Source: Closterium sp. NIES-65 (lineage: Eukaryota; Streptophyta; Zygnematophyceae; Desmidiales; Closteriaceae). From it: a stretch of DNA of 64,000 nucleotides. A model generated the notes under the pieces. It did not search any database and had not been told where the DNA came from. It saw nothing but the letters and a program-made list of their open reading frames with translations. The stretch is from NCBI GenBank assembly GCA_948144175.1, contig CANXME010000531.1, positions 868,001 to 932,000 of the forward strand, in the 5' to 3' direction. The position numbers and the translations under genes are program-made. Of this stretch, positions 2,407 through 30,503 are shown one piece after another (positions within the stretch are counted from its first letter, which is position 1; the number at the start of each line of letters is the position of its first letter).

Positions 2407-5400
2407 TTGACATCGACTACCCTCTCGTCTTCCCCCTTTCTCATCTCCAGCCTCCTCCGTTTTTTCACCTCTCCACCATCCGTCCTTTCCCCCTCTCCCC
2501 CATCTGCAGCCACCACCCGCACCGTCAATCTCTCCTTCCCGATTTTCATCGTCTGCCCGCTCGTCTACCAGATCTACGGCCTCACAGAGCAAGAATTTCT
2601 TGCACAGAACCCGCAACTGGTGAGCTCTCTCTTGTAACGTGCCTGATTCCTCTTCAGAGCTGGGGGGCTGTCCCTTTTCACCTCCTTTGTTCCGTGCGTC
2701 TACCAGCTCTACGGCCCCACAGAAAAGGCCTTCCTCAGCGCAGGACCTCAACCTGGTGAGCTTTACCTTTTGATGCGACTGAACTGAACTCCTTCCCCCT
2801 TCTGAGCTGCTACCTTGTTGCTCCTCCCCTGCATTCATCTCGTCTACCATCTCTACGTCCTTGCACGCAGGAGGCTTTTTTCGTTCAGAACTCCCAACTG
2901 GTGAGCTCTCACTTTTGACGCACCTGGTCCACTTCAGAGCTGGAGGGCTGTTCTGTTCCTTGTCTCCTTCATTCCGCGAGAATGTTGCACTTGCCTGCCA
3001 CGTCTACTACTCGTGAACTGGCCACTGATGCAACTCACGCCCCATCCCACGGTCCCACCCCACCCCACCCACAGGGCATGGGGAAGTGTGTTTCAATAAT
3101 GTATGACACACCAGTGAGCGTGGCGCTGCCATGATGAAATCACTTTTGAGAATTCTCCAAAGTGATTTTGCCCCATCCCCCACGGTCCCACCCCACCCCA
3201 CCACAGGGCACAGGGGAGTGCGTTTCAATCATGTACGACACACCAGTGAGCGTGGCGCCGCCGCTGACAGAAGCGGTGCACTGCGTGCTCTTCTACTCGT
3301 GGACGGCAAAGGACACGTGTGACAGCCTGGCAAGCTCGTTCTCGCTCACAGTGGACGAGTTTCTGGCTCTCAACCCGGGGATCAGCTGCGATAGCACCTG
3401 GAGAGCTCCGCGCGTGAACCAGCAGGTGAGATGCGGTGCAGTGCGGTGCTCGGCGGTGTGGCAAGCTCGTTCTCCCTCACAGTGGACGAGTTTCTGGCTC
3501 TCAACCCGGGGATCAAGTGCGATAGCACCTGGAGAGCTCTGTGCGTGAACCAGCAGGTGAGATGCGGTGCAGTGCGGTGCTCGGCGGTGTGGCAAGCTCG
3601 TTCTCCCTCACAGTGGACGAGTTTCTGGCTCTCTACCCGGGGATCAAGTGCGATAGCACCAGGAGAGCTCCGCGCGTGAACCAGCAGGTGAGATGCGGTG
3701 CAGTGCGGTGTGGTGGGCACGTTTGAGTGATGGCATCATAGCGGATCATGCTCTCAACAACACCACCTTATTCCCTCCACGTGCCGACACATATCCTCCC
3801 ACTCCTCCTCTCCACCCCCTTCCCCACCGGCTCCCATTCCTTGCTCTCATGCTTGCTCCCCGTCTTCCTCTCTCAATCCACGACGCAGCTATGTGTGGTG
3901 AAGGGCAGCGGGACGCAGGACGTACCGAAGCTGCCAATGTGCACCACATGGCACACTGTGCGCTCAGGAGACACGTGTGGAAGCATCATAAAAGACAATT
4001 CTCTCAACCAAACCGTCCCCTCCTTCCTCTCCTTCCCCTGAATGGCAGCTATGTGTGGTGAAGGGCAGCGGAGAGAACGACGTGCCCAAGCTGCCCATGT
4101 GCATTCGATGGTACACGGTGCGCGCAGGGGACACGTGTGGAAGCATCATGCAGGATCACGCTCTCAACCGAACCGCCTTCGTCTCGTTCAACCCAGGGTT
4201 GGCCTGTGACCGCCTCTTCCCGTCGTTCGGAGGCTCTCGCGTCGGCTGGGATGGGGAAGGCGTGTAGGTGAGGAGTGGGATGCGGTGATAATGGAAGTTG
4301 GGATGGGGTTTGATTTCTCCGTCCATTCTTCTCGTTCAACCCGGGGGTGCGCTGCGACGCCATACCCCACTCAACCGGGGGGTGAGTCTCCATACCCCAC
4401 TCAACCGGGGGGTGAGTCCCCATACCCCACTCAACCGTGGGGTGGGCTGCAAAAACATCTCTTCCGCCTGTTAAGGCAGCGGGGCTGGCTTGGGCTAGAA
4501 TAGGTGAAGCTGAGGGACTGGTTGGGTGAAGAGCAGTGATGATGCCCGTAGTGGTGGTGTGCAGGTGAGGGTTGTGTAGCAGGTGAGGGTTGTGTAGCAG
4601 GTGAGGGTTGTGTAGCAGTGATTGTATGCACCCGCGAATGAACACGCCCTCACCGCAGGTGTGTGGGGATGCATACATTGTGCCTCCGCGATTGAACACC
4701 CGGCCCATTGCCCTCACTCTCACATCGTCCCCGCGCACGCCTATCTTACCCCCTCTGTGCTCCACACCCACCCATCCCCCCTACCACAGGAGTGTGTGGA
4801 TACATACCAGGCTGGTTCCCCCAGCACAATCACCCCATCTCCCCCCCACTACCATCCATCCTAGAGTGCACTCAATGATACACCGTCCACGCCCATCCTC
4901 CCTACCACAGGTGTGTGTGGTGTGGATGCATGCAAAGCAGGTTCCCCCAGCGCAATCACCCCATCCTCCCCCCACTACCATGGACCCATCCATCCTAGAA
5001 AGCACTCAATCAATGATACACCGTCCACACCCATCCTCACTACCACAGGTGTGTGTGGATGCCCACCTCGCGGGTTCCCCCAGCGCAATCAAGCCTCGCT
5101 CAGTCCGTGAGCTTCCTTCCACGCTCTTCCCCTCGGCCCTCTCCTCTCCCTCCTCCTCCTCCTCCTCCTCCTCCTCCTCCTCCTCCTCCTCCTCCTCCTC
5201 CTCCTCCTCCTCCTCCATTCCTTCTCACTCCACACACTCATCGATGGGCCGCCAGCTGGCGCTGCTGGCCGCGGCTCGCTCACCGACGGGCCGCCAGCTG
5301 GCGGGGTCTAAGCAGCAGAGCGAGAAGTCTTACTCGGTGAAGAGGGGGGACTTCTGTGCGCATATCATATCGCTCAAGTTCCAGAATAGTGCAAAAAAGC

Positions 5401-5668: not shown

Positions 5669-6098
5669 TGTTGGGCTGAGATAGCCCCTTAGGATCTTTG
5701 CAAGGGATAACTCTAGGTGAAGTAGTTGTAATAGCGGAAGCGTTTAGTGAAGAATTTGAACCGACCTTGCACTGGTGTGTGAGAGCAAAGTTGATTGAAT
5801 TAAACAAGCAAATACAAGGATTTATATAAGAGTACAGGGAATAGATAGATAACTGTATTGCTGTTGCGGTTCGATATAGCGCGACTCGGGCAACTGTTCT
5901 GTAACGAGTCAGTTGTGTGTCCTTAACTGTCGCGCTGTAATTGTCGAGTCAAAGGTCAGCGACCTTTGACTTTCTCGTAACCTCCAGGCGGTTACCCTAA
6001 CCTCCGAGGTTGACTCGATGCTTCGATTGGGACTGCTTCGCTTGGTACCTTGGTTTTTGATACGACAGAAGCGCACTTAGGACTTATTGTTTCCAACA
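5669..6098 (-). repeat. 3' LTR of family A copy 1
   Basis: 430 bp, same as 11296-11725 by eye. The Gag-Pol stop codon (6077-6079) lies inside this LTR, so the last few Pol residues are LTR-encoded. Confidence 0.93.
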
Positions 6099-9000
6099 CT
6101 CCCCTTCGCTTCTGGAGTGTTACTGCTGGTGACGTGGCCTTGTCCAGTCAGCATCATGCAGTATTCGAACTTCTGCTTGCCGAGTTTCTTGGTCAAGTAA
6201 TCGGCTGCCATCTCGGATGTTGGACAGTATGACAGATCGAGTTTCCCTTTTTCTATCTCGTCCTTCACGAAGAAATAGCGCAGGGCGATGTGTTTCGTCC
6301 TGTTTGCGAAGCCGTTTTTGTTGGCGATGGGAATTGCTGACTGGTTGTCGCAGAACACGGTGAAGCTGGGTAACTCGGCTAGCTTCGCTTCTTCCAGTAG
6401 TTCGCGAAGGTAAAGTCCTTCCTTGGTGGCTGAGCAGAGTGCAATATATTCTGCTTCTGCTGAAGATAGTGCGATTAACTCCTGCTTGCTCGACTGCCAG
6501 GAGATAGGACCGATAGGCTCAAGGCGGTAGACATAGCCGATGCGTGAGCGCCTGTTGTCGGTGTCGCCGGCGTGATCGGCGTCGACGTAGCCGATTAGCT
6601 TAGTCGGTGTAGCTGCGCTCTTGTGGTAGGTTAGCCCGATCGTCGCGGTGCTGACGAAGTAGTGGAGAGCGCGATCAAGTTCCGCCAGGTGTTCAGCTTC
6701 AGGCTTCTTGAGATAGGTGGCGAGCTGACTTGCGGAGTAGGATAAGTCAGGACGGCAGGTGACGGCGGCGAATAGCAGGCATCCGAGCTTCTTCTGATAG
6801 TCGCGTATGCCGGCGGGCTTGAGTAGGGTAGTTCGTTCCTTCTCGGTTCCTGATGTGTAGCGGTAAGGCGTGGAGATGGCGCTTGGTGTGAGGCTGAAGC
6901 GTTTCGCGATGGTGTCGGCGTATTTCTCGGCGCTTAGATAGATGGCGTTTTCTTCTTCGCGGATGTTGAGCCCGAGGTACTGTGTAACGGTGGAGGAGAC
7001 CGTGAGCGTGAGGTCTTTCTGGAGCTCTCCTTCGAACCACGTGGCGATGCCGTCGGTTGACCCAATATAGAGGAGATCGTCCACGTAGACGATCAGGAGA
7101 ACGTAGTCGCTTCCCTTAGTGAGGCGGTACATGCCTTGGTCGTGAGGTAGTTGACTAAAGCCGATGCGGATGAGACGGGCGTGCAGGTACTGCTGCCACA
7201 GTCGCGGTGCCTGCTTGATCCCGTAGAGCGATTTAAGTAGTTGACAGATTCGGTTGGGTTCGCCGTGGGAACCGTGCGGGAGCTCGACGTAGATTTCTGC
7301 ATCCACAGGTGCGTAGAGGAAGGCATTCGCGACGTCGATCTGCCGTAACTTCTTCTTCTTCATGGCGGCAATGGCGAGGAGAATTCGGAGTGACGTGTGG
7401 CGGCTGACTGGAGCAAAGGTCTCGGTGAAGTCTCGTCCTTGCTCTTGGTCGAATCCACGTACGACCCAGCGTGCTTTGAATTTTTCGATCGTGCCGTCTG
7501 CTTTCGTCTTGATGCGGAAGACCCATTTCCCGGTAAGGATGGTTTTGTTCCGTGCCACGCTTACGGGAACAACCTTCCAAGTGTTGCGTTCCTCTAATGC
7601 CTTCAGTTCTCTATCCATGGCTTCACGCCATTTCTCCCTGTGTTCCCCCCCCAGAGCCTGCTGAACCGTTGCAGGCTCCTTAGGAAGCGAGCTGCGTGTG
7701 TTCCCGTGGACTGCGGTGACGAGGCCGAGGATTTGCAGCCCAGTCTGTGAGTATCGAGGGAGTTCTGGATCCTCGGGATAAGCTGCTTCGTCTCCCGCTT
7801 CTGGATCAGGGATGAAATTCGGTCCTATCCTTTCTGCTTCATTTGTGTTGACGGTTGCAGGTGTTACGTAACCGGTGTCGGCGAAGTGGTAGAAGACTTC
7901 GGCATTGTTACTGTCGCGAGGATTTTCTTCGTCCATGGGCACGTTGACGGAGCAGTACGGGAGAGGTCCGGCTTCTGCCGATGCGTTGTCAACATTCTGC
8001 TCGTCCCAGTCTGCTTCATCCGCTGCTGACGCGAAGGCTCGGTCACCACGAAAACCACTGGTGAGGTCCCGATTCTCGTGCAAGTTGGCGAGGTACGTCT
8101 GAAGGGTGAGTCTTTCGTAGAAGATCACGTCACGTGCTGCTACTGTTTCCTTTGTGTGGACGTCGAAGATTCTCCATGCGTTGTAATTTTTCTCGATGCC
8201 GAGGTGTAGTCCCCACTGTGCCCGTTGCGAAAATCTTCCCGCTCGTGCTTCTGGGGGTCTGTACTGTACCATGCACCCGAAAACTCGTAACATTTTCGTG
8301 CTGCCTTGCTTCCCTGTCCACAGCAGATGCGGTGATGCGTTGTTCGGGAGTGACGACGACGACAACAAGTTGTGTAGCATGACAGCGTGGTCCATTGCTG
8401 CTGGCCACTGGTGGTTGGGTAGCCGCATGCCACGTAACAGTTTGCGCATGCTGTTCTGCAGGGTCCTGTTCAGTCGTTCTGCAACACCTTGCTGCTGATG
8501 TGCGTAGGGAAGGGAGAGGAGTTGCTTGATCCCCCTTTCCGCCAAGAACTGCTTGAAGCGGTGAGAGGTGTACTCGCCACCTCCGTCTGACTGGAAATTT
8601 TTCAGTTGTGTTCCAGACTCTCTCTCTGCTATCGGTAGCCAGGCGGCGAATGCTGCGAGCGCCATGTCGCGGCTGGGTAGGTTGCGATGCCAGACGTATC
8701 GAGTGGCGGCGTCGATGAAGGTGATGGTGTAGTTGTAGTTGACTTGTCCTGGTTCGCGATTGTAGAGGATGTCGCTGTAGACTTTTTCGAGTGGTGCGTA
8801 CGCTGGAGCGCTCGGGTTGTGATGTGAAGCAAACGGTCGATGAGGTAAGTCAGCTTCGGGACATATAAGGCAAGTCCCTCGTGCCTTCTGGAGTTCTCTG
8901 CCATCGGGTAGAAGTAGAGAATCTTTGTCAAGAACTCCTGCTCTTATCGTGTTATTCAAAACCGTGTTGCTTGGATGTCCTGTTCGTGCGTGCCAGATCT

Positions 9001-11239
9001 CTTCAGAGGCGCGGTGTCCAGGTGAACGCTGATATGCGTCGGAGTTGGAGTAAAAGCTGGCGACGAGGTTGGCGCTTCGGTGGACTTCACGTTGAGTCGG
9101 ATTCAGCTGTTGCGCGGGTGTTGGTGGTGCTTCGTCGACTGTGACTGGTGTCGTTGTTCCTGCTGCTGCTGATGTTGTTGCTGCTGCCGATGTTGTTGCT
9201 GCTGCCGATGTTGTTACTGCTGCTGATGTTGTTGCTGCTGCCGATGTTGTTACTGCTGCTGCCGATTGTCGAATTGTTGCTAATGCTCGTGTTCGTTCTG
9301 CTTCAGGAATGGTGTGCGAGTACCAGAAGCCTCCTGGGCTGAAGTCGGGGTCGAGATCCGGAGGGTGTGTCCAGTCAGTGAAATTCACGATGGCGTCGCT
9401 GTCTGCAGTGCCCAGGTCAGGAACGAAGTCGAGGACGAAGACGTTGTTCTTCAGCACTGCTTTCCCGATGTAGAGGCCGCCTCTCCCGTGGTAAAGTTTG
9501 AACTCCTGGGTCGTGCTGTCGGCTTCCAGATGAATTCCTTTCGCCATCAACTGGCTAACGCTCAGTAAGTTGTAGCCGAGTCCTTCAGCGATGAGTACCT
9601 TAGACATGTGCAGTATGACATTTGTTTCTCTTGACTGAAGCTGTACCACTCCTTGTCTTCGTGTGCGCAGGTTTTGGTTGTTGGCAACCGTGATGATCAC
9701 TTCCCGTCGGAGTCGATGTTCGCGTTGTACGAAACGCCCGGACGAGCACATGTGTTGCCCGCAGCAACTGTCCAAGAACCAGGTGTCTTGGCCGGACGGT
9801 TCACTTTGAGCGATGGCGGCGTACGTTGGATTCGGCTGGAGTAGCTCACGACGAGGCGTTCTGTTGTCAAGCTCTTCTTCCGGTGAGTAGTGTGGTGGTG
9901 ATTCGGTTGTACACGAATCGGTTATCTTCGTCATGCAGTTGATTATATTTCTTGCTCCTTGTGCAGGTTGTCCGGGTGAAGTCGTTGAAGCTTGAATAGT
10001 GGTCGTCGCACTTGCTTGTGTTGAAGCCATTTGGGAGCTTGAAGGTCGAAGTTGTCGCTGTGGTGCCGTTGATTGCTGACGATTCGGGCAGTGTGTGCGC
10101 GGGTGCCCTGAAGTCTTGCAGATGTGGCAGAAGGGAGGTACTATCTTCGGTTGCTGCTGTCGGTTGTTATAATTGCTGTGTCGTCGTTGAGTGTGGAATG
10201 CGAACTCTGATACTGTCGTTTTCTTCCTGTGTCGTTCTTCCTGCAGGTCCATATCTTGCTGCTCGGCATGTATTTCGGCGCAGAGTGCAGCTTCAGAGAT
10301 TCTTCCGTGGGCTCGAAGAATGGCTTTGGTGGCGCGCCACTGAGGACCAAGCCCACCAATGATGACTGTCACGAAGGCGTCTTCAGAGATTGACCCTCCG
10401 CATCGAAGCAGCTTGTCGCGCAGTTCGCGACATCGGCTGATATACGCCAGCCCTTTTTCTCCTGGTTTCATTTCGACTGTCGTCAACTGCGCCATTAACC
10501 TGCTCTGGTTTACACTGTCTGTTGCTTGATACAGGTTCTTCAGATGGCTGTACGCGAGCTCCGCCGAGTTGCCGAAGGTCCGGTAAGAGCGAATGTTCTG
10601 CTGCTGAGTTGGTGTCACGTTCCTCAATAGGATTGTATACGCCATCATTGATTGATACGTATACTGCTGCTTTTCATATTGTGTCCCGTTGGCTGGATAC
10701 TGCAGGGACCCGTCGAAGAAGCCGAGTATCTGCGCGCCCTCCATCATCAGCTCGAATTCAAAGGACCAGGTAAAGAAGTCTTTGCCGTCGAAGGGTCTTG
10801 ACGTTTGCAGTTTTAAGACGTGTGCAAACTGCGACTGAACTTGAAGTGCGTCCAGTGGTCTTTCTTGTCCAGGTGAAGGTTGCGGGTGGGGCACGAAGCT
10901 GATTGACCCGCGCTCGTACGGAGCAAAGGTAGGTTGCTGCTGCTGGTTTCCTCGCGCATATGACGACCCATCAAGACTCATGGGTGTCGCTCCGTTGTTG
11001 CTGTTGTGTGTTTGTGCAGGTCCCGACTGCTGGTGTTGTTCGTAGAAGGACATGAAGGAGAAAAATTTCTCCATCATGTTCTGGTCAAAGTCCGAAGGGT
11101 GGTTCATGGGGGTCTCGGTTGACGTTCCTCTTGGTCTTGTTGCCGTGCCTTCTTCTGTCTGCAGGCCAGAGGCTGGCGGTGGAGTAGGAGTAGTGCCCGA
11201 GGAGCCATTAGGGGAGCTCCTTTCCTTGTTTGTTGCCAT
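6077..11239 (-). CDS. Gag-Pol polyprotein, Ty1/copia family A
   Basis: Single 1720-aa frame. In order: Ser/Thr/Gln-rich N-terminus; Gag domain (about 135-330, FFTWSFEFELMMEG); zinc knuckle CX2CX4HX4C (about 370-384, CHICKTSGHPRTHC); aspartic protease near 485 whose active site reads LDSCCGQHM rather than the usual DSGA; integrase HHCC finger (WHARTGHPS ... CLIC, about 745-805); integrase core with FQSDGGGEY and a GVAERLNRT block; reverse transcriptase (RVT_2) with IVYVDDLLYIG near 1385; RNase H with YVDADHAGD and TKHIALRYF. A Thr/Ala repeat (SAAATT units, + strand about 9160-9270) separates protease and integrase. No stop or frameshift interrupts it. The start ATG lies 56 bp inside the 5' LTR. 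Confidence 0.93.
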   Translation of the reverse strand: MATNKERSSPNGSSGTTPTPPPASGLQTEEGTATRPRGTSTETPMNHPSDFDQNMMEKFFSFMSFYEQHQQSGPAQTHNSNNGATPMSLDGSSYARGNQQQQPTFAPYERGSISFVPHPQPSPGQERPLDALQVQSQFAHVLKLQTSRPFDGKDFFTWSFEFELMMEGAQILGFFDGSLQYPANGTQYEKQQYTYQSMMAYTILLRNVTPTQQQNIRSYRTFGNSAELAYSHLKNLYQATDSVNQSRLMAQLTTVEMKPGEKGLAYISRCRELRDKLLRCGGSISEDAFVTVIIGGLGPQWRATKAILRAHGRISEAALCAEIHAEQQDMDLQEERHRKKTTVSEFAFHTQRRHSNYNNRQQQPKIVPPFCHICKTSGHPRTHCPNRQQSTAPQRQLRPSSSQMASTQASATTTIQASTTSPGQPAQGARNIINCMTKITDSCTTESPPHYSPEEELDNRTPRRELLQPNPTYAAIAQSEPSGQDTWFLDSCCGQHMCSSGRFVQREHRLRREVIITVANNQNLRTRRQGVVQLQSRETNVILHMSKVLIAEGLGYNLLSVSQLMAKGIHLEADSTTQEFKLYHGRGGLYIGKAVLKNNVFVLDFVPDLGTADSDAIVNFTDWTHPPDLDPDFSPGGFWYSHTIPEAERTRALATIRQSAAAVTTSAAATTSAAVTTSAAATTSAAATTSAAAGTTTPVTVDEAPPTPAQQLNPTQREVHRSANLVASFYSNSDAYQRSPGHRASEEIWHARTGHPSNTVLNNTIRAGVLDKDSLLLPDGRELQKARGTCLICPEADLPHRPFASHHNPSAPAYAPLEKVYSDILYNREPGQVNYNYTITFIDAATRYVWHRNLPSRDMALAAFAAWLPIAERESGTQLKNFQSDGGGEYTSHRFKQFLAERGIKQLLSLPYAHQQQGVAERLNRTLQNSMRKLLRGMRLPNHQWPAAMDHAVMLHNLLSSSSLPNNASPHLLWTGKQGSTKMLRVFGCMVQYRPPEARAGRFSQRAQWGLHLGIEKNYNAWRIFDVHTKETVAARDVIFYERLTLQTYLANLHENRDLTSGFRGDRAFASAADEADWDEQNVDNASAEAGPLPYCSVNVPMDEENPRDSNNAEVFYHFADTGYVTPATVNTNEAERIGPNFIPDPEAGDEAAYPEDPELPRYSQTGLQILGLVTAVHGNTRSSLPKEPATVQQALGGEHREKWREAMDRELKALEERNTWKVVPVSVARNKTILTGKWVFRIKTKADGTIEKFKARWVVRGFDQEQGRDFTETFAPVSRHTSLRILLAIAAMKKKKLRQIDVANAFLYAPVDAEIYVELPHGSHGEPNRICQLLKSLYGIKQAPRLWQQYLHARLIRIGFSQLPHDQGMYRLTKGSDYVLLIVYVDDLLYIGSTDGIATWFEGELQKDLTLTVSSTVTQYLGLNIREEENAIYLSAEKYADTIAKRFSLTPSAISTPYRYTSGTEKERTTLLKPAGIRDYQKKLGCLLFAAVTCRPDLSYSASQLATYLKKPEAEHLAELDRALHYFVSTATIGLTYHKSAATPTKLIGYVDADHAGDTDNRRSRIGYVYRLEPIGPISWQSSKQELIALSSAEAEYIALCSATKEGLYLRELLEEAKLAELPSFTVFCDNQSAIPIANKNGFANRTKHIALRYFFVKDEIEKGKLDLSYCPTSEMAADYLTKKLGKQKFEYCMMLTGQGHVTSSNTPEAKGSVGNNKS

Positions 11240-11275
11240 GTCTTGTAATGATCTTGAAAAAAGGAGTAGAGTTTC

Positions 11276-11295
11276 CCTTGTCTGCTCTCATACCA
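11276..11295 (-). promoter_or_regulatory. Primer-binding site of family A copy 1
   Basis: Directly after the 5' LTR the minus strand reads TGGTATGAGAGC, one mismatch from the common plant site TGGTATCAGAGC that pairs with initiator Met-tRNA. Confidence 0.8.
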
Positions 11296-11725: not shown

Positions 11726-11730
11726 ACCTG

Positions 11731-13250
<1,520 letters not shown>

Positions 13251-13280
13251 ACATGTGAATTGAATCGATTACTGAGCCCA

Positions 13281-13540: not shown

Positions 13541-13543
13541 TGT

Positions 13544-16500
13544 CTACAAGCGGGCTGACGCTCCACTATTACCCGAGCTGCCACTGCTCCCACCCCCCAT
13601 CATCCTCTTCTGCCAATCTCGCAGCTCCTTCTTCCCAATGGAGGCCAGGTGCACCTCATCTGGACCGTCAGCGATGCGCAGAGTGCGAGCTGCTGTCCAC
13701 AGGCGGGCAAGAGGGAAGTCCGAGCTCACCCCCCCACCCCCGTGCACCTGGATCGCCCTGTCCAGAACTTTTTGAGCTGCCCGGGGGGCAGCCACCTGGA
13801 AGAATCAGAAATGGAGGGGCGATAGTGAGAGGAATTCAAGAAAAGAATGGGGGGGCGGAGAAATTGGTACGAGTTCTGAGAAGTCTCAAAGCACAAGAGG
13901 AAGGGGAGGAATTACGATGGTACGACGACGGCAACAACTCAGCCAGCTGCATTCCCCTCTTTGCTATTCTTGCCAACTCTGCAGCAGCAGCAAAAGCAGC
14001 AACACCAACACATAACCGTCTTCTCTCCAACACGAGTGTCAGTCAATCACTCTAGCCATGGCAATAGCAATCCGTGCCCTCCTTGTTCGCCCTCACATCC
14101 AGCTCAGCTGCCGCCTGCAGCACCAGCAGCTGCATGGCAATAGCAATTCGTGCCTCCTTGTTCCAATTGGCGTCCAGCACCAGAAGCCGTGCTGCCTCCA
14201 GCGTGATGCGGCACATGAACACCGCACTCTGTTCCCTCTGACCTTCTGTCTCTCACTCACCTTGGCCATAGCGATAGCGATCCGGGCCTCCTTGTTCCCC
14301 TTGGCGTCTAACTCAGCAGCCGCCTGCAGCACCAGCAGTCGCGCCGCCTCCAGCGTGATGCGGCATTCGGCAGTATCCCTCATCACCGACTCGTTGCCGC
14401 CCAGCGGCCGCCCGAACGCCACCCGGGAGAGTGCGCGTTGGAGCATGCAGTCCATGGCTCGCTCTGTGGCCCCTATGAGCCGCATGCAGTGGTGCAGCCG
14501 ACCCGGGCCTAAACGACCCTGGTAGCACATGAAGGGATTAGAGCAAGCGATTGGAGAAGGACAAGAAACAGGGGGGGGGCAGGGGGGGGGGGGGGATGGA
14601 TTCGGGGGAAGGCGTGATGGGGTTGGAAAGGGCACAGGTGAGCATGCAGTCCATGGCTCGCTCTGTGGCTCCTATCATCCGCATGCAGTGGTGCAGCCGA
14701 CCCGGGCCTAACCGACCCGTAATGCATAAAGGGTTCAGGGTCAGTGCAAGTCACCGTCAATAGTGTGCGTGTGTGGTGGGGGGGGCAGGGTTCCCAAACA
14801 CCGGCAGCGGATGGCACGGGCACCTGATGCACCTGAAGCACCTGAAGCAGCTCTGCTACAGCACCTGAAGCAACTCTGCTACAGCATCTGAAGCACCTGA
14901 AGCGACTGAAGCAGGTACAGCACCTGAAACAGTTGCTGCGTCTGAATCAACTATTGGCTCCCGTGCTCACCTGAGCAATCTCAAAGCCTCGGCCTTCACC
15001 CAGCAGCACACTTGTCTTGGGCACCTTAACCCCCTCAAACAGCACCTCCGAGTGCCCATGAGGCGCATCATCATATCCAAACACCAGCAGTGGGCGCACT
15101 ACAGTCACCCCAGGAGCACTCATGGGCACGAGCAGCATGGACTGCTGCCTGTGTGCGGGCGCGGAGTGGGGGCCGGAGGGAGCAGCTCGCTCGGGGTGCT
15201 TGCCCATGAAGATTGCCACTTTGCAGCGCGGGTCGCTGGCGCCACTGGCCCACCACTTGTGGCCGTGTAGGATGTAGTGGTCGCCCGCACTGTATGGGGA
15301 AGAAGACAGCGTGGTGAAGTGGAAGGAAGACGACAGGGTGTTTCAGTGGAAATCAGCAAGAGGTTGAACGGTGCACACTCTGCCCGCACTTCTTTTTGAG
15401 TCAAATCTCAAGCACAACTGCCCATCCAACACTTGACACGTGTGTCTGCACCTCTCTATCCCCACCTCTCTATCCCCACCTCTCTATCCCCACCTCTCTA
15501 TCCCCACCTCTCTATCCCCACCTTTCTATCCCCACCTTTCTATCCCCACCTTTCTATCCCCACCTTTCTATCCGAGCCTCGATGTTGGTGGCATCGCTGG
15601 ACGCCACTCGTGGCTCTGTCATGGCGAAGCACGAACGGATCTTGCCCTCCAGCAGAGGCACCAGCCACTCCCGCTGCTGCTGCTCGTTGCCGTAGCGCAA
15701 GAGAACCTGGTTGTAGGCGGGAGGAAGGGGACAGTTGGCTCAGCAGAATAACGTTTCACTCGTTGCAACACGACACCGTTTGATGCACGCCTACGACAGG
15801 TGAAACGAGTGGGGTGTTGCAATGGAATAACAGATCGAGATGGTCAACAAGCCAAAAGCAGGTTCACCTCAGTTCCCATCCCACCTCCATGTTGCCTGTG
15901 TCTGGCGCAGAGCAGTTGAAGAGCTCAGGCGCCCACTCGCTCTTGCCCATCTCCTTGCACACGTGCGCATAGTCCAGATTCGACAGCCCCGCCCCCAGCA
16001 GCAGAACCCTGTCCCACCGCACTGAACCGCATTCCACCACACTAAACCGCATCCCACTGTGCAGTACCGCATTTTACCACCCTCAAACCCTTCATCCCAC
16101 CTCCATGTTGCCGGTGTCGGGCGCAGAGCAGTTGAAGAGCTCAGGCGCCCACACGCTCTTGCCCATCTCCTTGCACACGTGCGCATAGTCCAGATTCGAC
16201 AGCCCCGCCCCCAGCAGCCCCCGGCTCTGACACTCCCCAAGGACAGGCGTCACTGGCACTCCCGCATCCTGCCATAAGAGAGGGGGAGGGCGGGGGAGGG
16301 AGGGCAGGGAGCGGAGGGAGGAGGGCGGAGGAGGGAGGGCAGGGAGCGGAGGGGGGAGGGCGGAGGAGGGAGGGCGGGGGGAGGAGGGGGAGGGCGGAGG
16401 GCGGCGAAGGAGAGGAAGAATTGAGTTGAAGGGGGTTGATGTCAGTTGTGCAGTCTGAGAGGCCTTGAAGTTGTTCAGGGGACGGTGGAAAGTGGGGTGG

Positions 16501-19500
16501 AGTGGGGGAAGGGGGTTGATGTCTATCCTTGCACGCATGAGTGTCGTAGCCTATGACTCTATGTTCAACATGCAACAGGCAACTGATTGTGCACAAGTGC
16601 GAGCAACAGCAGTTCTGCAACCTCTCACGTCTTGTCTTCATCCCCTAAACAAGCATCCGCATCACGTCATATGTGTTGTAACAAGCCGTCGACTCACCAG
16701 AGCGGGAATCCACAGGTTCCAGAGCCCAGCCTGCTTGGCCTTCCCCTTCAGTTTCTCCACCAGGGGGTGAATAGTCCACCGTGCCTCCCCCACTGCATGT
16801 TCCTCCAATATCCCCTCTATAGGCAACACCTCTTGCGTTACAAACTCCGCCACTCGCCTCCTCAGTGCCTCGGCTCGCGGGCTGGGCGCCAGCCCCACAG
16901 GATGGGATGGCGATGCTGGAACCGCACTGGATCCATCCCAACCCCCTGCAATACCCACTGCGCCGCTTGAACCACTGATGCTGCTGCTGCCTTGTGGTGG
17001 TCGGGCAGGAATGGAGGGGGGCGAGTGCACCACGTGCAGGGCGCATGCTATCAGACCCGCCACCTGACGGCCGGCCTGGCCTGCCCTGCTGGAGGATGCA
17101 TTGCCCTGATGGGGGATGAAGATAGGGAGGGAGGGAATATGCATCGTCACTCAGGGAAATGAGGGAAGAGGGTGTGAGGTGAATGGGAGTGAGAGTGCAG
17201 CACGTGCAGTGCAGTGCAGGGCGCATGCTATGAGCCCAGCCACCTGAGAGCCCGCCTGCCCTGAGGAGGAAGGAGGGGAGAGCAGGGGGCAGAAGAGCAG
17301 GGGATGGAATGGTGAGTCGTGCGCATGTAACAGGGCACTGCACTGCTTTTGAGGCGCCTCAAAAGGGCACTGCACTGGTGCACTAGGGAGCATATGCACG
17401 GGCCTGCAGTATCTTCCAGCGCTCGTTCCACCACCCGTACCACACCTCGACCGTGCAGTACCTGCACTGCTCTACCTGCACTGCTCTACCTGGAGCACCT
17501 CCAAGCACTCAATCCACCACCTGTGCCACACTCCTTGCAGTACCATGCATATACTTCCAGTACCTGCCATGCTTGGTTGGTACTACCATGCGTCAATACC
17601 TGCAGTGCTTTGCCTGCACAGCTTACAATACCGTGCACTACCTGCAGTGCTTTGCCTGCACAGCTTACAATACCGTGCACTACCTGCAGTGCTCGTTGGT
17701 AAATCCCCGTGAAGATAGCAGCGCCGCGGAACAGCGAAAGGGCCACGTAGAAGCGCCATGTGTCACCGGGCCATAGGCTGACGCCCTGCACGCAACAGAC
17801 ACAGAAGGAGCGAGAGCAGAAAAGCATGTAGCTGTCAGATTGTTCTTGCTCATTTGCATGTAACTATGGCCGATATAACACAAAGCACCGTTTGAGGGAG
17901 CGAGAGCAGAAAAGCATCAATTGACAACATTCAAATCCTCTGCGCCCCATCTGCCTCCTCATCCTCCTCTGCCTCCTCTCCCTCCTCTGACTCCTCTTAT
18001 CGCAGTAAGCATGCACGGACTGTGCCTCGGAGGGAAGGGAGAGGAATACCATGCGGCAGTGCAAGGCATGGCAACCAGCCAGCCTCCCATACAGCAAGCA
18101 CGAGCAAGCACAGCACACCTGCAGGCGCTGTATCTTGTGGCAGTAGGCGCGCACAAACTGTGCCTCGGAGGGGGTGCGAGCGGGCAGGGCAGGGATCCTG
18201 CTGGTGGTGCCTCGGGCAGCTAGCTGGGTGATGCCGAGAGAGAGACGGCAGCGTGGCTCCCCTCCCGCTGCAATGGCTGCATTGCCACACACAAAACCGA
18301 GCACGCACAGCCAGCTCACCTGCAGGCGCTGTATCTCGTGGCAGTATGCGCGCACGAACTGCGCCTCAGAGGGGATGCCAGCGGGCAGGGATCCTGCTGG
18401 AGGCCCACCGGGCAGAGATCCTGCTGGAGGCCCACCGGGCAGAGATCCTGCTGGAGGCCCACCGGGCAGAGATCCTGCTGGAGGCCCACCGGGCAGTTGG
18501 GTGATGCCTAGGGATGGCAGCATGGCCCCCGGCTGGGATGGCGGCAGGTGGTATGGCTGGGGCATGCGTGGGTGGGGTGTTGGAGAGAGGAAGGAAGAAG
18601 GGAGAAGCTGGGTGTGAAGGGAGGCGCACGGGCAGTTGGGTGATGCCCAGGGATGGCAGCATGGCTCCCAGGCTGAGATGGCGGCAGATGGTATGGCTGG
18701 GGGCATGGGGATGGGCGGTGCTAGGTTGAAGGCAGAAGGGAGAAGGAGAAGGGAGAAGGGAGAAGATAGACGGGAGAATTTGAGTGAAAGGAGGAGCACC
18801 AGGCAGAGAAAGGGAAGCATGGGCACGGCTGAGACAGCAGCAGGTGGTAGGTACGTAGGTACAGCTGAAGTTGGTATGACTTTTGAGAAGCAGCAGGTGG
18901 TAGGTAGGTAGGTACAGCTGAAGTTTTCGTTTTTTGGAACACGTGGCAAGCCAACCTCATTTACCACCTACCAGACAGCAGCACGCCCCCTGGGACATCT
19001 AATTTCCAAGTCACCAAGAAGCAGTACGCGACCTCAGACATCTGGTTGCTAAGTAGATTCAGGGCTATATGGAAGTCACTCGGGAGAATTCTCAGAAGTC
19101 AGCTCGGGATTAATCACTTACGAGGCAGCAGTACGCGACGTCAGACATCTGGTTAATCACTTACGAGGCAGCAGTACGCGACGTCAGACATCTGGTTTCC
19201 CAGGGTCGAGAGCTCCCAGTCCAGTACTGCCACCACTCGCGGCTGCCAACCAAGCAGAGAAAGCCCACAACGAGCATGAGAAAGTGGGCACAAGGTGGCA
19301 AAAACAAGAAGAGGGCCCTAATAATAAGCAATGCAAGCCACACACGGTTCTCCACACGCAGGCAAGAAGAAGAAAACACTGATTCCTTTCTTTTGTGACA
19401 TAAGCCAAGACTCAAGTGCGCACACCTCAGTGGGGTGGAACACGAGGTTATCGAGCCGAAGATCCCCATGCACCAGGCCCCTCATCACCCCCTCTGCTGC

Positions 19501-23592: not shown

Positions 23593-24986
23593 CCATTGCG
23601 ACACAAGTTCTGACACAACCTGCCTCGTGCGGCAGAGGTTGTGCGATCGCTGGCTAGGCTGGAAAGCGACGCGCGCCTATGGCTGTCAGCGAGGCTATGG
23701 CTGTCAAGCATAGATTCATATCCCAAAAGCCTGTGCTTGTCCTATCCATCTAAAGTTCTAAACCCACCGAACCTATGGCTGTTCTATCTTACTGTAGCGT
23801 ATCATGGCTGGCATATCGATCCAGCAACTTCCAGTGAGGCTATGGCTGGTCTATCGTTACTGTAGCGTAAACCCACCGAACGTATGGCTGTCATATCGAT
23901 CCACCGATGCTATAGCGGCAGTTATGTAACCATCCGTGAATGACGGCACAGTATTCGCACAACAGCACGCGCACAGCTACAGTACTGACTCTATTACGTG
24001 GAATTTTCCGTCTCACAAACGGGACTAGCGGCCGCATATTGGGTATTGAGGGTAGGATTGTGGATCTTATTGGAATTGCGTGTCGCGACAGCATACCTCG
24101 CGGCGCGACAGCCTTGCGTGAGGCAAGAAACATGCTGGCGAAGCGTTGCAGATGTACTAGACTTACAGCACCAGTAACTAGTAACGCCACTGCTTCCTCT
24201 AAGTGCGGTTCGGAGTACCATTTCCGGCGCGCTTTGCGCTACGGGTCGTCTCGAGAATTCCCGCCGTGTGCAGCTGGAACGGTGGGTCGCCGCGCGCAGC
24301 GACCTCACCGCTGCTTGGGGAGGCGTTTTCCGTGATACCATACTTTAACCTAATTTTGCGAACACGTATGCGCCTTGTGCAATGCATAGTGCGACGAGCG
24401 GCCCTCACCTTCCCAGTGGACGGGCACAAGTCACAATGCTCCGTGAGCTAGCAAATCCATCTCTGGATTCCTGCGACAGAATGCGACGCCATGCGACCTC
24501 ACGGTGGCGACGGCGACATGCGACCTTCGCTGTGGAGCTCGCATGCTCGTCGCAAGTAAGCTGCTGGTACCGTGTAGCTCGACTGAACCTGCAACGTATT
24601 ACTAGAATGTACACCCCTTGCGAGCATTCTCGATTGTCGCTTATTTCCACTTCCAGACAGCGACATTTGAGATTCTGGCGGGATTTCATTCAGTAGAGGA
24701 ACGCACGCGCCGCCGCAGATTTTTTAGGCGCCTCAAAAGAGCACCCGGCTGACTTTCAGCTCAGAGGTTTCAACTTGACGGGCGTAAGAGGAGTCACACA
24801 GTTTAGAGGTACTACTTGTGACCGTCGCTCTCCTTATGTGATCAACTTGAGTTGAGGTTTCATTCAAAGAGACCTCGCAGTAGTAATTTGTTCGAGGGAG
24901 TCGACTTGCCGCGCCGCGCTACTACCGCTGTTGAGTTGCTGTTGTGACCTCCGATAGTACCTCGTGGGTGTTTTGAGGCACGCACG
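23593..24986. other. Intergenic; degenerate repeats around 23660-23920
   Basis: Reiterated words GGCTATGGCTGTC, CTACTGTAGCGTA-like, AACCCACCGAACGTATGGCTG and CATATCGATCCA at irregular spacing. From about 23930 to 24980 I see no repeat or gene that I can support; at 24721-24739 there is TTTTTAGGCGCCTCAAAAG, another near copy of the 17346 palindrome. Confidence 0.45.
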
Positions 24987-25343: not shown

Positions 25344-28300
25344 GTGCGTGCAGCAGCGCTTCTCGCCTTTGTGCTGCCGTCACTCGCGCTCGCCAGCAGC
25401 ACGGGGGAAGGTGAGGCCACGCACCGCTGGAATCTCTTGTGTCTGCTGTTTCCTCTGTTTCTGTTGTCTGCTGTTTCCTCTGTTTCTGTTGTCTGCTGTT
25501 TCCTCTGTTTCTGTTGTCTGCTGTTTCCTCTGTTTCTGTTGTCTGCTGTTTCCTCTGTTTCTGTTGTCTGCTGTTTCCTCTGTTTCTGTTGTCTGCTGTT
25601 TCCTCTGTTTCTGTTGTCTGCTGTTTCCTCTGTTTCTGTTGTCTGCTGTTTCCTCTGTTTCTGTTGTCTGCTGTTTCCTCTGTTTCTGTTGTCTGCTGTT
25701 TCCTCTGTTTCTGTTGTCTGCTGTTTCCTCTGTTTCTGTTGTCTGCTGTTTCCTCTGTTTCTGTTGTCTGCTGTTTCCTCTGTTTCTGTTGTCTGCTGTT
25801 TCCTCTGTTTCTATTGTCTGCTGTTTCCTCTGTTTCTGTTGTCTGCTGTTTCCTCTGTTTCTGTTATCTGCTGTTTCCTCTGTTTCTGTTGTCTGCTGTT
25901 TCCTCTGTTTCTGTTGCTTCTCGTGTGTCTCTTGTCTCTTTTGCAGCAAGACCGCATCTTCTCGTGCTGCTTTCATCTGCAGTAGGATCCTTCTGCCTCT
26001 TCCACACTTCTCACTCTTCTCTTCAACCTTCCTCTTTGTCTACTTCTCCTCTTTCCCGCCTCCTCTCCATCTTTTCCTTTCCCCACACTCCCTTGCTTCA
26101 CACTCTCGTACCCCGACGCTCCCTTGCCCCGACTCTCCCTCGCTCCTTCCTTTTCCCTTTCCCCTTACTCTTTTGGTTATTCGCTCTCGCACTTCCCCAT
26201 TCTCCATTCATCCCCCTCTTCCACGCTCCTCGCTCGCTCCCCCGCGCCCCACTGGGGCTCCTTGCAGCTCATTACGCTGCCTGGCTTCTGAGCGCCCGTG
26301 GAGTGAGAGGCACTAAAATCATTTTGTGTTCTCCTTTCTTCCCTTTCTCCCACGCTCCGTTCTCTTTTCTCCCCCCCTCTCCCATCTCTCCTCGCTCCGC
26401 GCCTCCCCCACGATGCTCCCCTTGCAGCTCACTTCGACGCCCAGTTGCTGAGCGCCCGTGGAATGAGAGGCACTATAAGCATATCCGTCTCAAGGTAAAG
26501 GACACTCTGCTTAACTGGCATGCCGCATCTCGTATTGTTTTTATTGCACGGCTTTACCTTCTCCTTCCTCCCTTCCCTCCCTTCCCTCCCTTCCCTCCCT
26601 TCCCTCCCTTCCCTCCCTTCCCTCCCTTTGCGTAACATGGTTCTTACTCCCTCCACCATTTTTTTCCTTCCGCGAAATTTATTGCTTGCATCAACCGCCT
26701 CCCAATGACTCATGAGAGCTCTCGCGAGAGCTAAATCCTCCAGCTGCTTTCTTTCCTCTCTCAATACTCCTTACCCTCATCCCCCTCTCCCTTTCTCTCC
26801 CCTCTACCCTCGTTCCCCCCCTCCCCTCCACTTCCCCAGTGCCCTACTTCCCGTCTCCCTTCCTCTCCCCCTCTGCTCCCCTCCCCTCCCGGCTCCCCTC
26901 CTCTCCCCCACGCCCCTTCTCTTCCCGGACAACAAAGGTCCAAATTGCGACGCCCGGCCCCAGCCTACACCATCAGTTTTTGTGCTGCCACCACTGCCGC
27001 CCACTTCCCTCCCCTCCGCTTTTCCTCCCATCTCCTCCCCCCCCACAACCCCGTTCTCTAATTCGAACACCGCAGGGCCATATCGCGAGGCACGGCCCCG
27101 GCCTACACCATCCGCTTCGGTGCCGCCGTCGCTGGCGCTCACGACCCTTCCAGTAACCTCTTCCCCTCCTTCCCCCCCTCCTCTCCTCCGCTCCCCCCTC
27201 CCCTCTTCTCCCCCCTATTATCTGTTCCCGAACACCGCAGGGCCATATCGCGAGGCACGGCCCCAGCCTACACCATCCGCTTCAGTGACGCCGTTGACCC
27301 CCACTCCCCTCCCACCAACCTCTTCCCCTCCGTTCCGCCTTCCCCTCTCCTCCTCCCCAACTCCCCTTTCTCCTGCTTGGATACCCCAGGTCCATATCGC
27401 GAGGCACGGCCCCGGCCTACACCATCCGCGTCGGTGCCGCCAACACTTCCGCTCATTCCCCTACCCTCCGCTGTTCCCTCCCCTCCTTCCCCCCTTTCTC
27501 GCTTTTCTTCCCCAACATACCGCAGGGCCATATCGCGAGGCACGGCCCCGGCCTACACCATCCGCTTCGGTGCCGCCGTCGCTGGCGCCGACTCCCCTCC
27601 AAGCAACCTCCTCCTCTCGCTGCCACGTGGAGCGCCGCCATTGGTCCTATGCGGGGTAACGGCTGAGTGCCAGTGGGTGGCAACAACACCATCCGTGTGG
27701 GAGGCGGCAGGGGAGAGGAGGATGAGAGGGGTGGATGCGCGGCAGGGAAGGGCACTGGAAGACATGCTAACTGCGGTGGGGGAGGGGGGAGGGAGTGGGG
27801 AGGATAGTGCAGCGGTGGGGGAGGGGAGTGATGCAGCGGCAGGGTATGGCGTGAGCGCTGCTGCTGTGGTGGAAGGCGGGGAGGAGGGGCACGATGATTT
27901 GTTGGGAGCGCTACAGAGAAGCCGCGAGTACAGCCACGGTACGAGCTCTATCCCTCTTATTGTGTGGGGAGTGGAAGTGGTGGTGAGCTCTATCCCTCTA
28001 TCCCTTCTATTGACTGTGTATGGCGTGCGTGCATGCGTGCTGCTGTGGTGGTGGTCAGTGGGGATGAGGGGTATGATAGAATCGGGAGAGGGGAGGACAT
28101 GACTGTAAGAATGGCGGATGAGGGGCATGGTGATCAAAATGGGAGCGCTACGGAGAACCCGTGTGTACTGTCATGTACCAGCTCTCCCCCCCCTCCCCCA
28201 ACGTCCCCCCCCTCCCCCAACTCCCCCCCTCCTCCCCACTCTCCCATTATTTTGGTTCACCAAATCAGCCACAGTACGGCGCAGCTCGTTGTTTCAGGGT

Positions 28301-30503
28301 GTTTTTGAGAACTCTCGAAAACACCCTGCAAATCAGCCACAGTACGATGAGCTCGTTTCCCCCCCTCTCCCCCCACCCCCCCTCCTCCCCGACTTCGCCC
28401 TTTTTTTGTTCATCCAATGAGCCACAGTATGAGCTGCATGCACCTCACTTGGCCGGCAATGCGATTTTCCCCATGCGCCCACTGTATGCGCATACTGTGT
28501 CGCACCCCATCCCCTTGTTGTCCCTCGTCTACTCCACCAACAAACCCAATCCGTGCCATCCCTGCCATCCCTGCCATCCCTGCCATCCCTGCCATCCCTG
28601 CCATCCCTCCTAACCAACCGCTCCTCCTCACCTCGTCCTTCGCCCGGCCATTTCCCCCCTCCCACCACAGGCATCATCATTCCGCGCTACCCCCCACAGG
28701 ACCCCCGCCTGGAAGTGCGCCTGAAGGGGGGAATGGGGAAGATGGGGGAGAGGGGGGAGTTGGGGGAGGGGCTATCAGGGGCTATGCGTGGAGGGGCGTT
28801 TATGCTGGGGGCTTTCAAGTAAGATACAACGACCTGAATATGTGGGAATTCTCAAAACTCGCTCGCGGCATTGTTGTTTCTTGCTTGAGACGACAACGTA
28901 AAAGAGGTCTTGTTCAAATACTGGGGAAGCAGTGTGGATTCAGTAGGATTACCCCGAAACTTTTGAGCTCAGCAGCTTTTGCAGGTGCAGCTCCTTGCAG
29001 GTGCAGCTCCTTGCTACTAGTTCTCCTCCTTCGCGCGCTTTTTTCATATTCTTAGGAGCAACTTTTCGTAGACGAGTCCAAGCAGCACCCTGTTTAGCAT
29101 TTTTTGGTTCCCTTTGTTCCTCTTGTCTTCTTCAGGGCTGGTCACGTGGTGCTGAATCACGACATGTCTGAGGCGCCTAAGGGATTGTCACGGTATTTGA
29201 CATCGTTGAGGTGCCTGAGATACCGTTTCTTTGTTCTCCCTTGCTTCTTGATCTACTTTCCTTCAGGGACGGCCATGTGGTGGTGAATTACGACATCCGT
29301 GTTATCGGCCCTGCGCAAAAACCCTCCGCCATCAATCTCCTCGTTGATTACCCCGACCCGTCCTCATTACAAGCCTCCTCGTTACAAGTCGCCTCGCTTC
29401 AGTGTGACTCGTGGGCGGAGTTGAAGCCACAGATGTGGCGGGCGCAGTGCAGCAGCAGGTGGAGCAGCAGCAGTGGGGGCGGCAGTGCTGGCTCTTCTTT
29501 GCAAGGGCTTGTTCAAAACATGACTGAGGGCGTGTTCAATCGGTTCGCTTGCTTCGCCGTGGACGGTGAGAGGTCTCCCAGTGTTGCTGTGCTGTCAGTG
29601 GCAGTCAGTGCAGCTGGTGAATCAGTTGAGGGAGCCGCTGAAGCTGGCTCGCTCGTAGGAGGCATTATTTGGAGGGCGCCACTTGTGGGGTTGGATCAGA
29701 GGGTGCAACAGGGGGAGGAGCAGGGGGAGGAGCAGGGGGAGCAGCAGGGGGAGCAACAGGGGGAGCAACAGGGGGAGCAAAAGGGGGAGCAACAGGGGGA
29801 GCAGCAAGGTGGGCAGGTGAGTCAGAAGCAGGGTGAGCAGAGTAACAGTGGAGCTGGTGCAGCTGTGGCTACTGTATCTTTCGAAGTCCCTGCTGCCAGT
29901 GCTTCTTTCGACATGGATACAGGTAACGCTGCTGAGAGTGCTGCTGAGGATGCTGAGGGTGCTAATGCTGCTGAGGGTGCTATTGCATCCGTGGGTGCTG
30001 ACTCAACATCTGCTAGCAAGTGTGAAACCTCCGAGTTTCCCTGTGCTGATGATTCGGAGGGCACTGCTACCTACCAGAGCCCTGACTTTCTTGAAGAAGA
30101 GATCAGCCTATCAGATGGTACGGATATCCTTGTTCGCAGCCACACTCTTAGCAACACGCACAAGGATGATTTTCCTGCTGTCATCGAGGGAGCTTATAAC
30201 GAGGGTGAAGGAGAGACAGCAGACAATACAGATAAAGCAGGGGATGTGGTGGGTCCAGGGTTAGGGGACAGGAGAAGGGTAGGAGCAGAGGCAGGAGCCG
30301 AGGCAGGAGCAGAGGCAGGAGCAGCATTCATGCCGAGTCCTCCTGTGGCCCACAGGCTCTCCCATGCGTCATACCACGTGCCTCAACTGCTGCGCCTGCC
30401 ATATCAGCACCACGGCAGTGCTTCTGCTTCGCATGGTGCTTGTGACAGGAGCAGTTTCGCTGTGAAAGAACGCGATGCTGACCCTGCTGTAGAATCGTGT
30501 TGA
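25344..30503 (+). CDS. Multi-exon gene of unknown function, possible signal peptide
   Basis: A candidate first exon at 25344 encodes a signal-peptide-like MRAAALLAFVLPSLALASS and ends at GGGGAAG|GTGAGG (25411). Later candidate exons: a repeated one whose last copy (from about 27530) stays open to about 27960 (SRGTAPAYTIRFGAAVAGAD ... HDDLLGALQRSREYSHG); about 28672-28820 after CCACAG (IIIPRYPPQDPRLEVRLKGG); about 29136 (AGHVVLNHDM); and the last exon 29277-30503 (DGHVVVNYDIRVIGPAQK ... stop). The last exon is Glu/Gln/Gly-rich with GEQQGEQQGEQ and GAEAGAEAGA repeats. I do not recognise the family. Exon linkage is inferred from strand, splice sites and open frames; more than one gene is possible. 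AATAAA follows at 30723. Confidence 0.4.
25436..25915 (+). repeat. 25-bp tandem repeat, ~19 copies
   Basis: Unit GTCTGCTGTTTCCTCTGTTT (first 20 of 25) repeats from about 25436 with almost no variation (single changes near 25812 and 25866). It is pyrimidine-rich in gene sense, lies right after the putative first donor and ends at TCTCTTTTGCAG (acceptor-like, about 25945). Long ORFs on both strands are by-products. Confidence 0.95.
26562..26630 (+). repeat. Pyrimidine 9-bp satellite (TTCCCTCCC)n
   Basis: About seven CCTTCCCTC units, followed by irregular C/T-rich DNA to about 26930. Typical of the pyrimidine-rich introns in this gene. Confidence 0.85.
26930..27600 (+). repeat. Five tandem copies of an acceptor plus exon start
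   Basis: Copies of C-GCAG|GGCCATATCGCGAGGC then ACGGCCCCGGCCTACACC then ATCCGCTTCGGTGCCGCC occur at about 26937, 27078, 27240, 27390 and 27527 (spacing about 140-160 bp). Each is followed by a C/T-rich tract that acts as the next copy's polypyrimidine tract. Only the last copy continues into a long open exon, in the frame RGTAPAYTIRFGAA. The other frames (for example YREARPRPTPSAS) are shadows. Confidence 0.8.
28261..28346 (+). repeat. 18-bp direct repeats flanking a 34-bp palindrome
   Basis: CAAATCAGCCACAGTACG at 28261-28278 and 28329-28346. Between them, CAGGGTGTTTTTGAGAAC followed by TCTCGAAAACACCCTG (28295-28328) is a near-perfect inverted repeat with a GAGAACTCTC core. A third decayed copy of the direct repeat is near 28419. 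Confidence 0.85.
28552..28612 (+). repeat. 9-bp tandem repeat (CCATCCCTG)n
   Basis: About seven head-to-tail units in an intron upstream of the CCACAG acceptor near 28670. Confidence 0.9.
29694..29815 (+). repeat. Gln/Glu/Gly coding minisatellite
   Basis: Units of 12 bp (CAGGGGGAGCAA/G) in the last exon encode (GEEQ)n to (GEQQ)n. A second short array, GGAGCAGAGGCA at 30280-30330, encodes (GAEA)n. Confidence 0.9.

Follow-up and report, generated by a model that had tools for sequence, protein, structure and literature searches.

Do the short palindromes that lie between the copies of direct repeats at this locus mark inserted DNA, and if so, what kind of element was inserted? The initial annotation of this stretch of Closterium DNA (64,000 bp, further called the window) had noted small palindromes with a common core at the junctions of local duplications, and had offered three readings of them, namely, a hairpin-tipped mini-element with variable target duplication, filler DNA from fold-back repair, and hairpins that trigger duplication. 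Taking together the data given below, we consider it probable that the palindromes form a family of ultrashort mobile DNA, with a preformed palindrome being joined into widely staggered breaks, likely via a hairpin intermediate and perhaps with the help of an enzyme.

Palindromes and direct repeats in the window

The window is eukaryotic in character, with LysM stretches, copia-like reading frames, and many local repeats. The LysM domain stretches (3180–3440, 3328–3710, 5100–5474) lie close to palindrome A and include a tandem duplication with 131-bp steps, 96% alike. Copies of copia-like retrotransposons, some of them fragmentary and nested, are found at 5669–11725, 30.8–32.0 kb, and 32.2–63.8 kb, one of them being recent, since its two 430-bp terminal repeats are identical. 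Other repeats are a TG/CA microsatellite of several hundred bases (~12050–12900), a minisatellite with units of ~25 bp (25440–25916), and 250-bp inverted arms, 83% alike, around ~150 bp (22936–23584), possibly an old inverted-repeat element.

The palindromes considered here share a family unit, a self-complementary word of 18–54 bp with the innermost 18 bp, TTTTGAG-NNNN-CTCAAAA, being conserved (the core; the four middle bases are further called the centre). The respective features of the window are as follows.

3039..3130, + strand, insertion A, target copy 1, 92 bp (flank alignment; self-BLAST 89.4%)
3137..3168, no strand, palindrome A, AATT centre, 32 bp, one mismatched pair
3170..3262, + strand, insertion A, target copy 2, 93 bp (flank alignment; self-BLAST)
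11830..11851, no strand, palindrome B, GCGC centre, flanking repeat not found by the aligner
13873..13892, no strand, weak palindrome, AAGT centre, two core mismatches, no repeat found
17332..17345, + strand, insertion C, target copy 1, exact, 12–14 bp
17346..17365, no strand, palindrome C, exact core, GCGC centre, perfect, 20 bp
17366..17377, + strand, insertion C, target copy 2 (flank alignment)
18836..18872, + strand, insertion D, target copy 1, 37 bp
18873..18888, no strand, insertion D, 16-bp filler with half a palindrome (GACTTTTGAGA)
18889..18925, + strand, insertion D, target copy 2, 37 bp
19084..19093, no strand, degenerate core GAGAATTCTC, doubtful; loose 14–15-bp copies at 19072–19085 and 19095–19109, by eye
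24720..24739, no strand, palindrome E, GCGC centre, flanking repeat not found by the aligner
28261..28278, + strand, insertion F, target copy 1, 18 bp exact, looser likeness beyond
28295..28328, no strand, palindrome F, AACT centre (not self-complementary), 34 bp
28329..28346, + strand, insertion F, target copy 2, offset 68
29169..29182, no strand, degenerate core with GCGC centre; copies at 29130–29165 and 29261–29296, the second 78 bp away

With up to three mismatches allowed, the core matches the window eight times, compared to 1.60 on average and six at most in 100 shuffled sequences. This excess comes from matches with zero to two mismatches (six, vs. none for the reversed control), the counts at exactly three mismatches being two and five, respectively. 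Among the spaced repeats listed for the window, palindromes with a score of at least 8 occur only in the spacers at 3.1, 17.3, and 28.3 kb, and the highest scores in the window belong to two palindromes (3137–3168 and 17346–17365), both of them located between direct repeats. The folding of the 20-bp palindrome is unremarkable, the same value being reached by 11 out of 200 shuffled sequences.

Thus, among the six cases cited in the initial annotation, those at 3137–3168, 17346–17365, and 28295–28328 and the half site at 18873 are clear, whereas those at 19084–19093, where the aligner chose a different repeat, and at 29169–29182 are weak. Palindromes B and E had been described as having no obvious repeat, and the aligner found none. 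The presence of only half a palindrome at site D counts against the reading as mobile DNA.

The palindrome family across the genome

The association of the common core with duplication junctions holds, and the family extends far beyond the window. A search of the whole assembly to which the window belongs (874,075,685 bases, 2400 contigs) shows exact TTTTGAGNNNNCTCAAAA at 30,327 places, which is an upper bound on independent insertions, since tandem arrays and near-identical duplicate contigs are counted, compared to four places for the reversed, also palindromic, control. As some loci are present on two or three near-identical contigs (C6/C1658/C347, C1541/C298/C835, and C1413/C1888 of assembly G000), copy counts are inflated. 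Duplicated gene content of a comparable kind is known for Closterium strains from a study whose main text does not contain the string "palindrom" (PMC10407611).

The sample read comprised contigs C6, C9, and C10, chosen for listed matches, and 15 pieces picked for the 54-bp form described below. In 200 kb around listed matches, there are 51 exact cores, 24 cores with one mismatch, and 23 with two, the reversed control yielding none, and at exactly three mismatches we observe 21 matches vs. two for the control. The centre is self-complementary in 47 out of these 51 exact cores (TCGA in 22, ACGT in 13, GCGC in 10, and AATT in two), and the remaining four centres occur once each, all of them one step from the main four. 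The 264 kb read contain 78 perfect palindromes of at least 14 bp; the core family accounts for 60 of them, and the other 18 are singletons. The palindromes are often clustered, with 58 out of 104 residing in 17 clusters.

The palindromes found appear to be nuclear, judging by the size of their contigs, which reaches several Mb, and by neighbouring copia-like elements. A viral home was rejected: in the viral_contigs collection, the TCGA core has no places and the ACGT core, one place; the wider sixteen-centre pattern yields 86 stretches there (about 80 listed, each with a single place), and a control pattern, unmatched in base order, seven. A prokaryote home was rejected as well, as the G/C-flanked centre pattern occurs in 53 stretches of the GTDB collection (257 billion bases), a density far under that of the Closterium genome.

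A direct repeat (score at least 15 within 150 bp) accompanies 46 out of 51 exact cores (50 from the 200 kb and one from the window, cores too near the ends being left out), compared to 138 out of 600 random positions in the same loci. Removal of clusters leaves 44 testable solitary cores, that is, 19 exact ones, 13 with one mismatch, and 12 with two. For the exact ones, a looser first test yields repeats at 17 out of 19 (vs. 684 out of 3000 random positions and 25 out of 157 other palindromes), and a stricter test, which considers the single best repeat within 30 bp on both sides, at nine out of 19 (vs. 287 out of 3000 and three out of 157, respectively). Since larger outer repeats masked inner ones at several sites, we adopted an anchored test (repeat within 30 bp of the core on both sides, score 12), devised after the result of the stricter one, which yields 17 out of 19 exact cores, this number including a few long, gapped, poor alignments, seven out of 13 with one mismatch, and six out of 12 with two, vs. 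546 out of 3000 random positions. The enrichment of flanking repeats, which the initial annotation had suggested measuring, is thus present in the sample read. Most of the solitary exact cores read are flanked by repeats of about 13–110 bp (20–110 bp at tight sites), and two out of 19 have no clear adjacent repeat.

Mean identity of the repeat copies at tight sites decreases from.946 to.884 and.828 at zero, one, and two core mismatches, respectively (n = 9, 5, 4), as expected if the repeat and the palindrome date from one event. Among local repeats with a spacer of 18–32 bp, the core lies inside 15 out of 28, and among all local repeats found, 43 out of 381 hold a core; hence, the palindrome element does not account for the majority of local duplications here.

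Insertion with a target duplication of variable length

For 92 sites, among them members of arrays, the unduplicated state was modelled and set against the sequence read, the matches of one satellite site being listed only in part. Four insertions have paralogues with one copy of the repeat and without the palindrome: L028:4164 (two empty paralogues, 86% and 84%), L034:4183 (two, 78% and 83%), L023:8971 (one, 81%), and L035:1955 (one, 80%; the least clean pair, its target having diverged and its alignment showing a gap of 4 bases). In the alignments of filled and empty sites, the gap comprises the palindrome and one copy of the repeat, and thus at these four sites the palindrome and the duplication arrived together. 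Other paralogue matches were set aside, being a satellite array (L020:7040), uninformative (L022:4156, L030:727, L034:5055-5079), or containing cores themselves (L104), and a paralogue search with 300-bp flanks yielded one usable pair, diverged too far between its exons to be informative. The occurrence of the palindrome at an unduplicated locus of relatives, which according to the initial annotation would speak against insertion, was checked in paralogues from the same assembly, and the palindrome is absent from those found.

The same four sites contradict the reading of hairpins as triggers, according to which pre-existing palindromes form hairpins, stall replication, and cause local duplications. 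Palindromes can provoke breaks, and tandem arrays of a palindrome plus a repeat exist, but the empty paralogues have neither the palindrome nor the duplication, and palindromes shared by unrelated flanks require movement anyway; we consider this explanation extremely unlikely. Still less credence, practically none, is given to an assembly or library artefact. A palindromic adapter left between the overlapping ends of reads would resemble the observed pattern; however, divergence between repeat copies reaches about a quarter, the cores decay in step, the empty state is seen in paralogues, and the 54-bp variants differ between loci.

What moves can be seen from the ACGT subfamily, whose full-length form, CACGTG-N(11-13)-TTTTGAGACGTCTCAAAA-N'-CACGTG, is found at 64 places (control, none). 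Two arrays (C448 and C1276), the units of which have unlike arms, account for 28 out of the 50 places listed; the other 22 are 12 perfect palindromes, three with the arm length off by one base, six with one or two unmatched positions, and one, in C1326, with unlike arms. The arms, therefore, vary much between loci yet mostly self-match, the array units being the exceptions. The 15 places read correspond to 13 distinct loci (L091 repeats L092, whereas L093 and L099 are one insertion on two contigs). At nine out of 13, a direct repeat of 15–65 bp is located 0–5 bp from both ends, seven being identified by the aligner (L103, 15 bp; L095, 26; L096, 28; L098, 31; L094, 54; L099, 54; L101, 65) and two by eye (L091, 15 bp; L102, 41 bp aligned, ~48 bp with a short gap). 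The remaining four have no clear adjacent repeat (there is a distant one of 8 bp in L097, an array in L104, and none that is clear in L090 and L100). One insertion is nested, with an ACGT element within a TCGA element (L091/L092).

Genome-wide searches with two of the 54-bp loci yielded 108 and 89 matches. Among the 40 candidates scored per search, the palindrome part matches many contigs (38 for L099), whereas the flanks match only their own locus and its duplicate contigs (three and two contigs); hence, at these two loci the dispersed unit is the palindrome alone. We see insertion with a target duplication of variable length, and at the loci tested the mobile unit is the palindrome. The hairpin-tipped mini-element of the initial annotation is thus backed by the genome count, the repeat association, the palindrome-only dispersal at two loci, and the four pairs of filled and empty paralogues, and the variability of its target duplication is supported as well.

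One may suppose that the palindrome is an extreme MITE, moved by a dedicated transposase or integrase that cuts the two target strands with a loose, variable stagger. The full-length copies of 54–55 bp do abut exact duplications (L095, 26 bp; L099, 54 bp; L103, 15 bp), and the tip and the outer CACGTG are conserved. However, duplications of 15–65 bp and 20–110 bp fit no fixed spacing, one-sided truncation of the arms is frequent, and there are 39 unpaired half-sites in 264 kb, vs. ~26 expected from six control 7-mers, so that a longer element with these ends is not visible there. We regard this explanation as rather unlikely, and the existence of a longer transposon sharing the palindrome ends was rejected on the same half-site count. 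The main exception to the rarity of halves is a 20-bp tandem array with half-sites alone (GACTTTTGAGGCAC...) at L025:7344-7470.

The half-site count also bears on excision, that is, on a larger inverted-repeat transposon that inserted and left, with its fused ends remaining between the target copies. Fused inverted ends between direct repeats have the look of a footprint, but footprints are a few bases, vs. 54 bp here, the target copies are of varying length, and a donor with such ends is not visible among the 264 kb; this makes excision very improbable.

The arms provide further constraints. In the TCGA class, they follow GGTGAC...GTCACC, cut off at various points. Arms are often truncated on one side, and yet the extents of the left and right arms agree beyond permutation (p =.004 for the difference and.0008 for equality; 28 sites, some of them neighbours). 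Hybrid centres TC/GC and AC/GC together account for 498 out of 30,327 places, and those listed are mostly ACGC, one transition from GCGC. As hybrid centres are rare and the arms are symmetric, both arms likely come from one molecule.

This is of importance for the supposition that both 3' ends of a staggered break receive a copy of a short RNA (~27 nt), the tags thus formed joining head to head. It accounts for the conserved centre, the variable outer ends, and the repeats, as well as for the 4-nt junction homology at L095 and L099, where the CGTG that ends the element also stands before the first copy of the repeat. At the same time, a mixed pool at the class frequencies of the sample would make about a quarter of the centres hybrid, far from the number observed, so that both ends must use one template, and the arm lengths of the two sides are correlated. 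Independent tagging of the break ends from a mixed pool was rejected, given too rare hybrid centres and too symmetric arms, and copying of a short RNA onto both ends seems improbable in general. It is also quite improbable that the palindrome is an extremely short SINE, with a hairpin RNA being mobilised through target-primed reverse transcription of the LINE type: some junction homology is present and LINE-type insertion yields target duplications of variable length, but LINE duplications are usually shorter than many of those seen here, and the inserts read are symmetric palindromes with no tail and no orientation. Finally, filler from fold-back repair is acceptable insofar as the joining itself may be end joining, but it leaves unexplained the insert family, that is, the common core and the shared 54-bp sequences.

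Returning to the favoured reading, a preformed palindrome joined into staggered breaks, the inserted molecule would probably be a hairpin or a short duplex, with the tip serving for recognition or protection. This molecule may be joined into a break with the two strands cut far apart, and fill-in would then double the stretch between the cuts; alternatively, the 3' end of the insert could prime re-copying of the target. Variable duplication length suits both fill-in at two distant nicks and re-copying from the 3' end of the insert, and the data do not tell the two apart. Fill-in at distant nicks is known to result from end joining where a break has protruding ends (PMC5730883). The tip would be kept while the outer ends get trimmed; retention of the tip, along with 39 half-sites vs. 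~26 expected and the hairpin folds, suits a hairpin with a protected tip. New self-complementary arms might arise when the ragged end of a hairpin is completed by copying of the opposite arm, and later quasipalindrome correction is another possible source of such arms.

More tentatively, and with more doubt than confidence, we suggest that the hairpin tip alone suffices: no more than the 18-bp core with one of the four self-complementary centres would be required in cis, each arm would be renewed in each round from the opposite one, drifting yet staying self-complementary, and insertion into widely staggered breaks might seed local duplications, minisatellites, and exon duplications throughout a large nuclear genome.

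Tandem arrays with a unit of one palindrome and other sequence are observed at L022:7990-8155, L025:1439-1668, L025:6185-6465, L032:8134-8319, C448:90878-91629, and C1276:862112-862863, with periods of 37, 53, 24, 42, and mostly 47 bp. They look as if the state of duplication plus palindrome expands on in tandem.

If the favoured reading is correct, no shorter mobile DNA that leaves a visible target duplication is known to us; the family would be present at tens of thousands of nuclear sites, and target duplication would be uncoupled from fixed enzyme spacing. Each site would then preserve the span of a former staggered break, and from identical 54-bp variants shared by separate loci one could read who copied whom.

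Comparison with known systems

The family fits no known class and is set apart by its features from MITEs and filler DNA, the literature compared being open access. We know of no mobile element that copies a target stretch of such variable length. MITEs are non-coding, with inverted ends, high copy number, and target duplication, and the palindromes likewise have a target duplication at insertion, with one copy in the empty site (four sites). On the other hand, MITEs are longer, have internal sequence separating their ends, and show a duplication length fixed by the transposase, whereas here the duplication length is not constant (15–65 bp, 20–110 bp, and 12–14 bp in the window), there is no internal spacer, and no longer relatives sharing the ends are seen in 264 kb, given the half-site count. 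SINEs and LINEs are oriented inserts with a 3' tail, and the palindromes are symmetric and tailless. Bacterial REP palindromes with RAYT transposases are very short and probably move as hairpins, through an enzyme that recognises the tip; they differ in being bacterial, whereas the Closterium palindromes appear to be nuclear and have long target duplications, which to our knowledge are not a feature of REP/RAYT.

Tandem duplications reportedly arise from staggered-break repair, as Schiml in 2016 and Vaughn and Bennetzen in 2014 are said to have described. In repair of this kind, the stretch between two nicks is duplicated and its length is variable, with no recurring insert family described in the portion of the source compared (PMC5730883), whereas here one palindrome family stands at the junction. 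Unlike repair filler, the insert is not random or local, but belongs to one conserved family genome-wide.

In titles and abstract openings of the open-access literature, we found no nuclear palindromic element with a target duplication. Short mobile hairpins are known from mitochondria, namely, hairpin elements of sponges and other organisms and GC clusters of yeast, their mechanism being disputed; in Allomyces, flanking duplications are lacking, which has been contrasted with DNA-type transposition in yeast (PMC2800124). Long variable duplications, present at the Closterium sites, are not mentioned for the mitochondrial elements in the compared portion of that paper, nor are they described for selfish organelle palindromes in the compared portions of the four respective sources (PMC2670323, PMC4524435, PMC2800124, PMC7235400). 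LIMP and HyLIMP of Lobosphaera incisa, with 19 and five copies in the mitochondrial genome, are internally repetitive, and the main text of their description does not contain the term "target site" (PMC4524435); they resemble the Closterium palindromes in complementary changes of both arms and a conserved inner part.

In green algal organelles, too, palindromes have been called selfish (PMC7235400). In Volvox carteri, organelle short palindromic repeats, on average 50 nt long, form hairpins with loops of 3–5 nt, are very numerous, and have been called selfish, while nuclear copies, ~0.06% of the nuclear sequence analysed, were judged inert; neither "duplication" nor "direct repeat" nor "target site" occurs in the main text of this study (PMC2670323). 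The Volvox repeats proliferated in organelles, and the Closterium palindromes lie on contigs that appear to be nuclear; like the Volvox repeats, the Closterium palindromes are dispersed, hairpin-forming, and tens of bases long. If the favoured reading holds, it would connect selfish palindromes, known to us mainly from organelles, to the way in which short tandem duplications and minisatellites originate.
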